From the IMG/VR virus record IMGVR_UViG_3300044530_000662, positions 1 through 64,000 of that record: a stretch of DNA of 64,000 nucleotides. One strand, written 5' to 3'. Below are positions 1,671 through 62,888 of the stretch, piece by piece. The first letter of the stretch is position 1; every line of letters begins with the position of its first letter. A program made the position numbers and the translations under genes. The notes beneath the pieces are model-generated. The model was not told the origin of the DNA, ran no database searches, and was given only the letters and a program-made list of their open reading frames with translations. The stretch is from a virus.

Positions 1671-2285
1671 ATGAATATTAGAAAAGAAAAAGAAAAAGAG
1701 TTTTATTTAAAACACATGGATACTTTTAGAGTTCTAGGTAATGCTGATCCATTCTTTCTTATCAAAACTGCCTTTTTTCAAAAAGGTAAATTTGGTAGAC
1801 AGGTTCAATTATTTGAATCTGAAATAGGAAAAGGTGAAGACATTTATATAGAATTCTATGATAATGTCAATGATGAGAAAGGTAATGTTACAAACATTGT
1901 TCCTTTCTTTGAAGATAGACAATTATTTAAGTATAAGTATAATCCATTCTATGCAGAAGAGTATGAAACAAAAGAAGGTACAAGCTTTAAAGGAGAACCC
2001 TTTATTCTTTATACTGTTCCTGTTTCTGAATTAGTTGCAGTTCTAAAGGATGGTACAGAAATTACTTATGCTTTATATGAAAAAAGAAAAGCAGAAGGAG
2101 AAACTAAAGTTGAAGATGTAGAACTTCCAAGATTACAGAAGTCTTTATTTCCAAACTTTGAACAAGAATTTCCTGCAAAAACTGAAAAAGTTCTTGAATT
2201 AGAATTAGACAACACAGAAACTGTTTCTGATATTTTATTAAGAATTGCAACAGAATTTCAAAAATTAGCACAAAAACTAAAGTAA
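1671..2285 (+). CDS. Hypothetical protein in replication block, 204 residues
   Basis: It starts 9 bases after the helicase stop and ends 1 base before the next ATG, so it is probably co-transcribed with helicase and Sak4-like genes. The N-terminus is highly charged (Lys/Glu), the middle is aromatic-rich with short beta-like stretches, and the last 30 residues form an amphipathic helix ending QKLAQKL. No signal peptide, membrane segment or catalytic motif is visible. I do not recognise the family. Its position between helicase and recombinase suggests a replication accessory role, which is only inference. Confidence 0.75.
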   Translation: MNIRKEKEKEFYLKHMDTFRVLGNADPFFLIKTAFFQKGKFGRQVQLFESEIGKGEDIYIEFYDNVNDEKGNVTNIVPFFEDRQLFKYKYNPFYAEEYETKEGTSFKGEPFILYTVPVSELVAVLKDGTEITYALYEKRKAEGETKVEDVELPRLQKSLFPNFEQEFPAKTEKVLELELDNTETVSDILLRIATEFQKLAQKLK

Positions 2286-7163: not shown

Positions 7164-7597
7164 TGGAAAAAGAATTTGTAACTTATGAGTTAGCTTTAAG
7201 AATGAAAGCACTTGGATTTAATGGACCTTGTTTTGGGTATTTTACTAAATATGAAGAATTTTTTTATTTTGATGTTGATGATTTAGGATCATCATACACA
7301 AAAAATATGGATAATTTGGTGGTATCGAGTGTTGATGAATTAAAATGTTCCGCACCATTATTCTCACAAGCATTTAGATGGTTTAGAGAGAAGTATGATT
7401 TATATCCTTCAATCAACATTTATAATGACAAGTGGTTGTGTGTAATCAAATCAACTGTTTCAAGTGAAACTGAAATTAGTGGTTATATAGTTGCTACTAT
7501 AAACAATGGTCATCCAACATTTGAAACTTATGAAGAAGCAGAACTTAAATGTTTGGAAAAGTTAATTGAGATTGTTGAATCTAAAACAGAAAAGTAA
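7163..7597 (+). CDS. Conserved Bacteroidota/phage hypothetical protein
   Basis: The segments VTYELALRMKALGFNGPCF, APLFSQAFRWFREKYDLYP and YEEAELKCLEKLIEIV are hallmarks of a small family often seen in Bacteroidota phages and integrated elements. Role unknown; the N-terminal part looks like a short helix-turn-helix-like stretch but I would not call DNA binding from this. It is coupled at both ends (TGATG in, TAATG out). Confidence 0.7.
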   Translation: MEKEFVTYELALRMKALGFNGPCFGYFTKYEEFFYFDVDDLGSSYTKNMDNLVVSSVDELKCSAPLFSQAFRWFREKYDLYPSINIYNDKWLCVIKSTVSSETEISGYIVATINNGHPTFETYEEAELKCLEKLIEIVESKTEK

Positions 7598-60448: not shown

Positions 60449-61110
60449 TATCTAAGAGCATTTTGGCTGTCATCAGGACCATCACTTGGAACTGACATTG
60501 ACATTGTTAATTCTTTTACTACATATTGTTCTACTTCTGCAAACAAGTATTCAGGAATATTTAATATTTCATCTTGTTGAATCAAGCATGGTTCTGTATC
60601 ACATTTTACTGTATTGTTTTCAAAGATTGCTTCCATTCTTATTGCATCCCAATCAATATTAGGACAGTATACATATCCGTTAAGATACCAGAAGTAAGGT
60701 CTTGTGTTATACTTAAATGTTGTTGTTCTAGTCATGGATACCCAAGTGCCTGGATCAGTTCTAAACATTTCAATACTACCATCAATAGATGAAGTAGTTC
60801 TTATTATAGGACCAAACATACCATTAAGTATACTAGGTAATTTATCTTTAGATCTTTTGAAGTAACATTCTGAATAAACACCAACACATCCAGCTTCAAC
60901 TTTATCAACATCAATTAATTCTATGTAGGGAAGTACTTGAAATATCTGACTCATCTTCATTAACCTAAATTGATTATCCTCTCTCTTAATAAGAGTCTGA
61001 GAATATTTCATTAAAGAAAAGTAAATAGTCCTGTCAGTTAAAAAGGGATCCTCTTTAACAGCTTTTAAAGTATTTCTTACTCTTGATATTGCTTCACCTA
61101 TTGTTGTCAT
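60448..61110 (-). CDS. Ring / head-completion protein (P22 gp4-like place), 220 residues
   Basis: The helical N-terminus (SRVRNTLKAVKEDPFLTDR, then IYFSLMKYSQTLIKRE) and beta-rich middle fit the crAss-like adaptor family compared in the literature with podovirus head-completion and tail proteins. Its stop-side overlap with the 343-residue ring gene and 4-base start overlap with the 193-residue gene place it in a compact connector cluster. No catalytic motif is seen. Confidence 0.6.
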   Translation of the reverse strand: MTTIGEAISRVRNTLKAVKEDPFLTDRTIYFSLMKYSQTLIKREDNQFRLMKMSQIFQVLPYIELIDVDKVEAGCVGVYSECYFKRSKDKLPSILNGMFGPIIRTTSSIDGSIEMFRTDPGTWVSMTRTTTFKYNTRPYFWYLNGYVYCPNIDWDAIRMEAIFENNTVKCDTEPCLIQQDEILNIPEYLFAEVEQYVVKELTMSMSVPSDGPDDSQNALR

Positions 61111-61688
61111 AAGTTAAATTCATTATATGTTGTCAAGGCTTCTGCCTGTTTTTTAAGGGCATAATGCTTCTTAAAGAAGTTTTGATATGTTATTCTTATT
61201 TTAGCATTAGGTTCAACTACCACATACATATTCCAATTTTCAGGATATGTTTTTGCTACAGCTCTTTTAAATTCTCTGCATGCTACAAATTTCCAATACT
61301 CCTTATTTTTCATTTTTATTTTAGGAGCATAATTTGTATAAAATATTTTAGCTAGTTTTCCATCAGTAGCCCAGTTATTATTTGATACAGCCATTCCGTA
61401 TGTATGAGATTTGGCAAAGTCTATATTCTTTTTCTTGCTTTGCTGACAAGTCCCTATAAATAACCAACCAATTGATTCTGGTAATTGCACACCATCTCTT
61501 GTATTAATAACTGTTTGATATACAGTTTGATTAAATAGTTTAGCTATTTGTTTCAATGTTGCATTATCAAAGTGTTTATACTTTGGATACCTATTTCTAA
61601 AATTTTCAAAGAACTCATTATTTAGAACATTATATACATCTGGTCTAAATCTTGGAGCTTTAACATCTGGTTTTTTAATTTCCTTCAT
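61107..61688 (-). CDS. Conserved crAss-like virion-module protein, 193 residues
   Basis: The sequence contains the family phrases FNQTVYQTVINTRDGVQLPE, IGWLFIGTCQ and FAKSHTYGMAVSNNNW, then a basic second half (FKRAVAKTYPENWNMY). I recognise these as common to Crassvirales genes beside the ring proteins, but have no certain name; it could be a further ring or an accessory DNA-binding protein. It is the first gene of the long late unit, preceded by a gap with promoter-like sequence, and its end overlaps the next gene. Confidence 0.62.
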   Translation of the reverse strand: MKEIKKPDVKAPRFRPDVYNVLNNEFFENFRNRYPKYKHFDNATLKQIAKLFNQTVYQTVINTRDGVQLPESIGWLFIGTCQQSKKKNIDFAKSHTYGMAVSNNNWATDGKLAKIFYTNYAPKIKMKNKEYWKFVACREFKRAVAKTYPENWNMYVVVEPNAKIRITYQNFFKKHYALKKQAEALTTYNEFNL

Positions 61689-61699
61689 GCTACTATATT

Positions 61700-61728
61700 A
61701 ATATACTAAAAATAAATGACTTTAACAA
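61700..61728 (-). promoter_or_regulatory. Possible promoter for the late minus-strand unit
   Basis: On the minus strand TTGTTA (61728-61723) and TATATT (61705-61700) are spaced by 17 bases, upstream of the ATG at 61688. This looks like a sigma70-type promoter, but Bacteroidota normally use a different -7 motif and the region is AT-rich, so chance is likely. It would give a very short leader. Confidence 0.3.
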
Positions 61729-61736
61729 ATGTACAT

Positions 61737-61768
61737 AAAAAACAAAACCCCCACAAGTGTGAGGGCTT
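61737..61768 (-). terminator. Minus-strand terminator
   Basis: Read on the minus strand, AAGCCCTCAC and GTGGGGGTT(T) pair over about 10 positions with two or three G-T wobbles around loop ACTT, followed by TTTTGTTTTTT. It ends transcription coming from the fibre genes or from the palindromic element before the late unit begins. Confidence 0.72.
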
Positions 61769-61817
61769 TGCCGTTGTTGTTACAGAAACCAACAAACCGT
61801 AACTTCTTTTAATACAG

Positions 61818-61926
61818 AATAATGTTATGGGCACGCCTATAATCAGGTATACACCTAGGTGCGTACTTATAATCAGGCAATCTCCTTGGAGATCAATTAT
61901 CATCAAGCACTACCCATAACATTATT
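61818..61926. repeat. 30-base-periodic palindromic element closed by a 14-bp inverted repeat
   Basis: Perfect arms AATAATGTTATGGG (61818-61831) and CCCATAACATTATT (61913-61926) enclose three 12-base units at exact 30-base spacing: CCTATAATCAGG (61836), CTTATAATCAGG (61866) and ATTATCATCAAG (61896). Between them are two 18-base units, each a hairpin with a different sequence: TATACACCTAGGTGCGTA and CAATCTCCTTGGAGATCA. The element lies between a fibre stop and a minus-strand terminator in a non-coding gap. It may be a structured RNA made from the minus strand or a protein-binding or replication DNA site. I do not know a matching family. Confidence 0.75.
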
Positions 61927-61937
61927 GTGCATATTAG

Positions 61938-62888
61938 TTAATGATTAAAATGTTTAATATTAGTAGGATCATGATTTATTGCATATGAAACATAAGAAGG
62001 ACCACCAATAGTCAATCTAAACTTCACTATTTTACATTGAATACTTGCTGTTAATGGACCAAATATAATTGGATATTTTGAATTTGGATCTGGATTTTCA
62101 ATACCAATTGCAAATCTAAAATACACTGATCTGTTTGGACTATCTCTTTTTCTTCCTCTTACATAATATTTTGCTAACTGATCCCATAAAACTGTATTAT
62201 TAAATGGTGCTGGTAATGAGTCAGAAATGAGTGAACAAATATAAAATTCTCCTGGATTAAAATCAGTTAGTAATTGTCTTTCATAAGGTTCAGTTATTGT
62301 TAAAGGAAACTCTGAATGTGTAGGACATAATGTAGTTCCACTATAAAAATTACCGTTTGGAAAATTTATACCTTGCATGTGAGTAGTATGTTTCCATCCA
62401 CCATGGTAATACTTTTTTTGTGAATCATCATTAATATCACGCACTTTTCTATTCTTTCCATTTTTCTTTACAAAAAGATAAATCTTAGGATTATAGTCTA
62501 AGTATGCATTAGATTCAGTACCAGGTAATATTGAAGCATGCAATAACTTACCTGCTTGTGATTGTATAGTTAATTGTGGTATTTGAATACCAGAGCCTCC
62601 TGAATTATTACAAAAATAATCAACTATACTTTCTAAAGCTTCAGCTACTGTATCATTAGTATTTACAATAGGTCCTGCAGGTGCAGGATTAGGTTCAGGT
62701 GCAGCATTAAATGTTTGAGCTACTGTACATGATAAAGGTAATCCTGTATATCTTACACATTGTGCATCAAATATTTCAGAGCATGGTTGTGGAGTAGGAC
62801 ATCCTATTGGTGTAGGACATGGAGCAGGACTAACCATAAAGCTATCCTGACATCCGCATTTCTTACATGTATTATTTGTTGTTGTCAT
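61938..62888 (-). CDS. Fibre-like virion protein with Cys-rich anchor, 316 residues
   Basis: The N-terminal 45 residues are very rich in Cys and Pro (CKKCGCQDSF, CPTPIGCPTPQPC), followed by DAQCVRYTGLPLSC and the helical NDTVAEALESIVDYFCN, an anchor-like layout common in aquatic-phage fibre proteins. The remainder is a beta-rich domain with aromatic and Gly residues (GGWKHTTHMQGINF, FNPGEFYICSL), probably a receptor-binding or capsid-decorating head. It lies 17 bases after the next fibre-like gene and just before the palindromic element. No chaperone or enzyme motif is visible. Confidence 0.65.
   Translation of the reverse strand: MTTTNNTCKKCGCQDSFMVSPAPCPTPIGCPTPQPCSEIFDAQCVRYTGLPLSCTVAQTFNAAPEPNPAPAGPIVNTNDTVAEALESIVDYFCNNSGGSGIQIPQLTIQSQAGKLLHASILPGTESNAYLDYNPKIYLFVKKNGKNRKVRDINDDSQKKYYHGGWKHTTHMQGINFPNGNFYSGTTLCPTHSEFPLTITEPYERQLLTDFNPGEFYICSLISDSLPAPFNNTVLWDQLAKYYVRGRKRDSPNRSVYFRFAIGIENPDPNSKYPIIFGPLTASIQCKIVKFRLTIGGPSYVSYAINHDPTNIKHFNH

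Follow-up and report, generated by a model that had tools for sequence, protein, structure and literature searches.

A nested palindrome of 109 bases (positions 61818-61926) lies downstream of a tail gene in the genome of a crAss-like phage, keeps its shape in a relative whose sequence has drifted, and accompanies one version of the gene that precedes it. We infer that it is transcribed as a structured segment of the 3′ untranslated region (UTR) of the late mRNA of this gene, here called gene X, and that it would shield or process the 3′ end of the message, a reading to which we give a probability of about one half. crAss-like phages are abundant viruses of Bacteroidota, and to our knowledge little is known of RNA-level regulation in them. 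Structures in 3′ UTRs and antisense RNAs are known as kinds, and their combination in crAss-like phages, together with the nested form described here, looks new; nothing relevant on crAss-like RNA elements of such a kind was found in the literature searched. The palindrome is a clear case of a shape conserved without its letters, and a neighbouring hairpin, K, provides a putative antisense circuit from late to early genes that is directly testable, one position of which varies naturally in a compensatory way (A or G in K, U or C in the target).

The window analysed here is a stretch of 64,000 nucleotides from the start (bases 1-64000) of a virus record of 117,285 bases, which is named crAss-like because one of its tail genes matches the crAss ring protein 2 family in a family search. 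The minus strand carries nearly all genes from ~18.7 to 96.9 kb, and no gene lies on the plus strand at the locus of the element. In the minus direction, the order of features is gene X (61938-62888, an open reading frame (ORF) of 316 aa in the tail region), the nested palindrome, hairpin K (61779-61803, recognized by stem pairing across relatives), an intrinsic terminator (61741-61772, predicted and kept in the alignment of relatives), a promoter-like stretch (61690-61745) and the ORF of a 193-aa gene that forms the next unit (61107-61688), all on the minus strand. The element therefore sits in the 3′ UTR of gene X. An initial sequence-only reading of the window had placed it before a terminator at the head of the late operon; the terminator was found, and the operon head is not quite accurate in view of the extent of the leftward genes and the position of the element behind gene X. 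The promoter-like stretch is retained in relatives ahead of the 193-aa gene, has a conserved TATTTTTAGTATATTAATA core and recurs once elsewhere in the genome as a 78% copy (L002, 94384-94440). A replication origin at the element was rejected, GC skew showing no turn near 61.8 kb.

The outer arms of the element, at 61913-61926 (5′ arm of the minus-strand RNA) and 61818-61831 (3′ arm), form a perfect 14-bp inverted repeat, found by direct reading and inverted-repeat search, which extends to 20 nt at 90%. Within them, three A units at 61836-61847 (CCTATAATCAGG on the plus strand, CCTGATTATAGG on the minus strand), 61866-61877 (CTTATAATCAGG and CCTGATTATAAG, respectively) and 61896-61907 (ATTATCATCAAG and CTTGATGATAAT) alternate with two B hairpins at 61848-61865 (TATACACCTAGGTGCGTA and TACGCACCTAGGTGTATA) and 61878-61895 (CAATCTCCTTGGAGATCA and TGATCTCCAAGGAGATTG), the former read directly and the latter also taken from a pair listing. 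The first two A units are identical at 11/12 positions and the third is more diverged; the second marks the symmetry centre, the symmetry point of the entire element being 61871.5. The B hairpins are unlike in sequence and have their centres 30 bases apart. These main traits, namely the perfect 14-bp repeat, the five units with their 30-base period and the differing sequences of the B hairpins, had been described beforehand and were all recovered at the same places.

By themselves, 14-bp arms at such a spacing are expected ~0.1 times per window (100 shuffles). The whole geometry, defined as an outer helix plus two symmetric hairpins spaced about 30 bases, was evaluated with a weighted score that replaced earlier stem descriptors allowing free G-U pairs, which were too permissive; this score was devised after both known elements had been found, the second one (L003) originally through gene orthology and not through shape. 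The element in the window scores 65 on the plus and 68 on the minus strand; dinucleotide-shuffled DNA (3.56 Mb) yields no score above 54. Across 1.78 Mb of crAss-like DNA, L003 ranks first (70), the window element second (65) and the next candidate reaches 60, so that L003 is the only locus to score as high as the element in the window. Folding of both strands, proposed earlier as a check, gave z values of -4.2 (plus) and -4.1 (minus), both better than all 200 shuffles. A and B units pair differently in the minimum-energy folds predicted for the two elements: in the window the A units pair mutually around one B (-37.9 vs -23.2 for the simple form), and in L003 there is little difference in energy between a three-way form (-41.1) and a long hairpin (-41.9).

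L003 is the one locus among 80 examined, all orthologous by the 193-aa gene, that has the element, and there too it lies between the gene X homologue and K. Its outer arms are AATGTTGTGGGTGTTGC and GCAACGCCCCCAACATT, and its two 22-base hairpins are exactly 30 bases apart. Identity between window and L003 amounts to 53.5% in the element, as against 70.4% in gene X, 84.3% in the 193-aa gene and 96.5% from K to the promoter. When the shared columns were fixed and the 54 differing L003 letters permuted, none of 1000 trials attained the pairing score (70, null 37 +/- 5) or the energy (-47.5 kcal/mol, null -27 +/- 4) of the actual L003 element; therefore, the differing letters restore pairing, and pairing is conserved. 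As read off the alignment, two pairs of the outer helix have undergone compensatory change from A-T to G-C and one pair is broken, and MAFFT places the inner hairpins of the two elements out of register. Both diverged elements also have in common the 30-base period and the positions of mismatch and G-U in the second B hairpin. The orthologous element supports, on the basis of two sequences, the earlier proposal that pairing rather than sequence is kept: a homologue that retained letters and lost pairing had been named as contrary evidence, and L003 retains pairing at its low identity. The suggested covariation check is likewise answered in part, by changed letters that restore pairing in a single pair of sequences. 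Judged from these two sequences, shape is conserved without letters, and the element is probably a working RNA.

In the helices of both elements, the gene strand (minus) has 7 G-U pairs vs 1 A-C, with two of the 7 at shared positions and hence about five independent ones. The pair listing bears out that the second B hairpin gains two G-U pairs on the minus strand; in the first there are a single G-U and a single A-C. The earlier hint of a minus-strand RNA is favoured by position and by this G-U excess, to the extent that about five independent pairs allow, and a minus-strand RNA is suggested as the better reading.

Transcription in the minus direction would then pass through the gene X stop codon into the element and on to K and the terminator. 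The element RNA would fold into a long outer helix closing two hairpins spaced by 30 bases, and selection would retain this shape while letters drift. Such a structure could protect the 3′ end of the mRNA against exonucleases and/or offer a double-stranded processing site at which the gene X message, which varies, would be parted from the constant tail of K and terminator, and it would move together with a particular C-terminal version of gene X inside an exchanged cassette. RNase III processing sites and 3′ barriers are known from phages, for instance the T7 intergenic sites and lambda sib. The long helix and the location of the element would fit this class, whose members likewise are long helices that follow a gene within a polycistronic phage mRNA and need no sequence conservation. 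Unlike them, the element carries two extra hairpins with an exact 30-base period inside the helix and comes from a crAss-like phage with a presumed Bacteroidota host. Processing by a double-strand nuclease may be proposed only by analogy.

Other known classes were considered and set aside. Rfam 15 gave nothing at gathering score in the genome, the best sub-threshold matches resembling terminators (rnk_pseudo, 24.8 of 55 bits). An intrinsic terminator would be a GC-rich hairpin with a T run directly behind it; the element lacks a T run, and the terminator is the separate hairpin at 61741-61772. Diversity-generating retroelements, in which an IMH hairpin comes after a variable repeat, need a reverse transcriptase and a template that repeats the 3′ end of the target gene; the genome contains no PF00078 match, and the 3′ end of gene X does not recur in it. 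An integron attC site was rejected, as the arms GTTATGG ... CCATAAC are in the reverse order of RYYYAAC ... GTTRRRY and PF00589, the family searched for an integron integrase, has no match. Type III toxin-antitoxin RNAs are tandem repeats before a terminator with a toxin gene that depends on the repeats, and of 80 relatives that keep the 193-aa gene downstream, 79 are without the element.

Gene X is composed of a conserved N-terminal part of ~96 aa and an exchangeable C-terminal domain, as seen from its N-terminal relatives and from the breakpoints of the exchanged part. Family searches matched it to no known family, and its AlphaFold model (pLDDT 28) is uninformative. Within IMG/VR, the C-terminal domain occurs in a single contig (L003/L093/L162); one further match in genomes, of 14 residues, was discarded as chance. 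In the relative L030, the N-terminal part of gene X (window 62604-62888) is 93% identical to that of the window and the downstream gene 77%, the C-terminus of gene X is different, and there is no palindrome; the element therefore belongs to an exchangeable cassette. The higher identity of the gene X N-terminus than of its neighbour (L030; L083 is also listed) is a sign of recent exchange of a tail-gene module. The element is absent from the other orthologous loci and from further contigs found through K, where the upstream gene differs, and searches of phage, plasmid and viral collections returned chance matches only, or none. In other relatives the stop codon of the exchangeable gene is usually within 18 nt of K, larger gaps probably reflecting for the most part short upstream genes missed by the 240-nt cut-off. 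A general occurrence of the element in crAss-like genomes is not supported: the proposed search of them yielded one homologue among the 80 loci, in a relative with the same gene X C-terminus. The element accompanies one C-terminal version of gene X.

Linkage to an exchanged module also raises the alternative that the element acts as DNA, as a cruciform or protein-binding site serving the recombination of the gene X module or the exchange of cassettes there, with RNA structure as a by-product. Near-perfect dyad symmetry and the constant 30-bp period would suit such a site, as would its place inside a module in which the N-terminus of gene X is shared with L030 and the C-terminus and palindrome are replaced; in addition, one contig (L174) ends just at the position of the element. 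Profile searches, however, detected no tyrosine recombinase, serine recombinase or reverse transcriptase in the genome, the same module has been exchanged in other relatives that have no palindrome, and the retained G-U pairs favour the gene strand. We regard a DNA-level role as unlikely.

Palindromes can persist through templated correction, and palindrome-correcting template switching could restore pairing without any function. The element might accordingly be a neutral relic, a tandem duplication within an inverted duplication kept palindromic by template-switch repair, and its occurrence in only two genomes is compatible with such an origin. Yet two diverged copies hold the full nested geometry, including the 30-base period and the mismatch and G-U positions of the second B hairpin, and G-U pairs confined mostly to one strand would not be an expected product of templated correction, which makes a functionless origin improbable.

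Hairpin K, the neighbour of the palindrome in the 3′ UTR, is conserved more widely than the palindrome. On the minus strand K reads GUUACGG - UUUGUUGGUUU - CUGUAAC. It is present in nearly all relatives, and its stem is paired in 48/48 distinct sequences tested, with variation at 4 of the 7 pairs, always on one side only; the loop UUGUUGGUUU is nearly invariant. An H-type pseudoknot between the loop and a downstream AACAA was rejected, since the crossing strand would not fit and the bases are variable. A complementarity search matched the K stretch GUUGGUUUCUGUA (61781-61793, minus strand) to the mRNA of an early gene at genome positions 107219-107231 (plus strand; L096:7219-7231), annotated by PHROGs as an HNH endonuclease (E 6e-11). 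Among ten whole genomes, eight have exactly one other occurrence of the K core, antisense within an early gene of ~135-146 aa. The early HNH-like mRNA is complementary to K over 12-16 bases in 21 genomes, as compared with a maximum of 10 in shuffles (300 trials). With ~900-1200 windows on both strands ranked and K's own antisense excluded, the HNH-like site is the strongest predicted duplex target of K in 8/8 canonical genomes (the window genome and seven others), at -20.0 to -24.3 kcal/mol; it ranks 834 in G029, which has an altered K loop, and 437 in G013, where the gene is distant.

The base that follows CUGU in K is A in 12 genomes and G in 9, and the target base facing it agrees in 20/21. 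On a tree of the 193-aa protein this base changes at least six times in K and at least five times in the target, few of these branches being well supported, and pairs were too few for a formal independent-pairs test. The codons under the K core (CAG AAA CCA) are invariant in 21 genomes, as are those of only 6/44 other fully conserved residues; three given columns would all be invariant by chance with a probability of ~0.005. These matches suggest that K pairs with the early HNH-like mRNA, or that one protein recognizes the same sequence in both places. They also suggest a phage antisense circuit in which K may silence the early nuclease gene.

Lambda OOP is an antisense RNA of a phage. CisR is reported to be a regulatory small RNA (sRNA) derived from a 3′ UTR and acting on the CTXphi cep mRNA (PMC13250501). 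As with CisR and OOP, K and the terminator would form a seed followed by a terminator, and a second mRNA of the phage has a conserved site complementary to K, which shows the conserved complementarity, best in the genome (8/8; 20/21), by which 3′ UTR-derived antisense sRNAs are recognized in sequence. Unlike both, K belongs to the late tail operon of crAss-like phages, and its putative target lies in the coding region of an early HNH-like gene. It is conceivable, though we hold it only tentatively, that the 3′ tail of the late tail-gene mRNA is a composite RNA, in which K and the terminator would be released as an antisense switching off the early HNH-like operon and the palindrome would be a cassette-specific module for release or shielding.

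In the window genome, a 301-aa gene (L096:7510-8415) begins 4 bases after the HNH-like gene. It encodes an RNA polymerase alpha C-terminal-like domain (E 1.6e-13), with a weak match to sigma-70 region 4 that falls below the cut-off, and its product is a possible phage transcription factor. Such a neighbour was found at the target loci of only two other genomes, in a clade with altered K, and is therefore not a general partner of the target. The A unit CTGATTATAAG (window 61866-61877) recurs in the same sense at L096:7231-7241, adjoining the K-complementary site, an odd adjacency, though individual 11-base matches are common.

That recurrence, together with tandem 30-base units inside a closing stem, would be in keeping with an independent small RNA cut from the late mRNA, a decoy or sponge whose repeated A and B units would bind a protein or RNA. 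L003, however, does not keep the sequence of the A unit, and 11-base matches are frequent in this genome; we consider such an RNA quite improbable. A protein-coding repeat with a 10-codon period, raised by the sequence-only reading, can practically be dismissed, since despite the 30-base period and a 66-codon TTG-started frame that crosses part of the element, stops interrupt most of the six frames (five in L003, four in the window), and six-frame comparison of the two revealed no conserved ORF.

Elsewhere in the same genome, ARAGORN predicted one odd tRNA-like gene with an unreadable anticodon (L096:4496-4581), and other very stable local folds were observed at L095 ~7200-7300 (minus strand, z -8.8) and L096 ~1951-2060 (plus strand, z -4.6).
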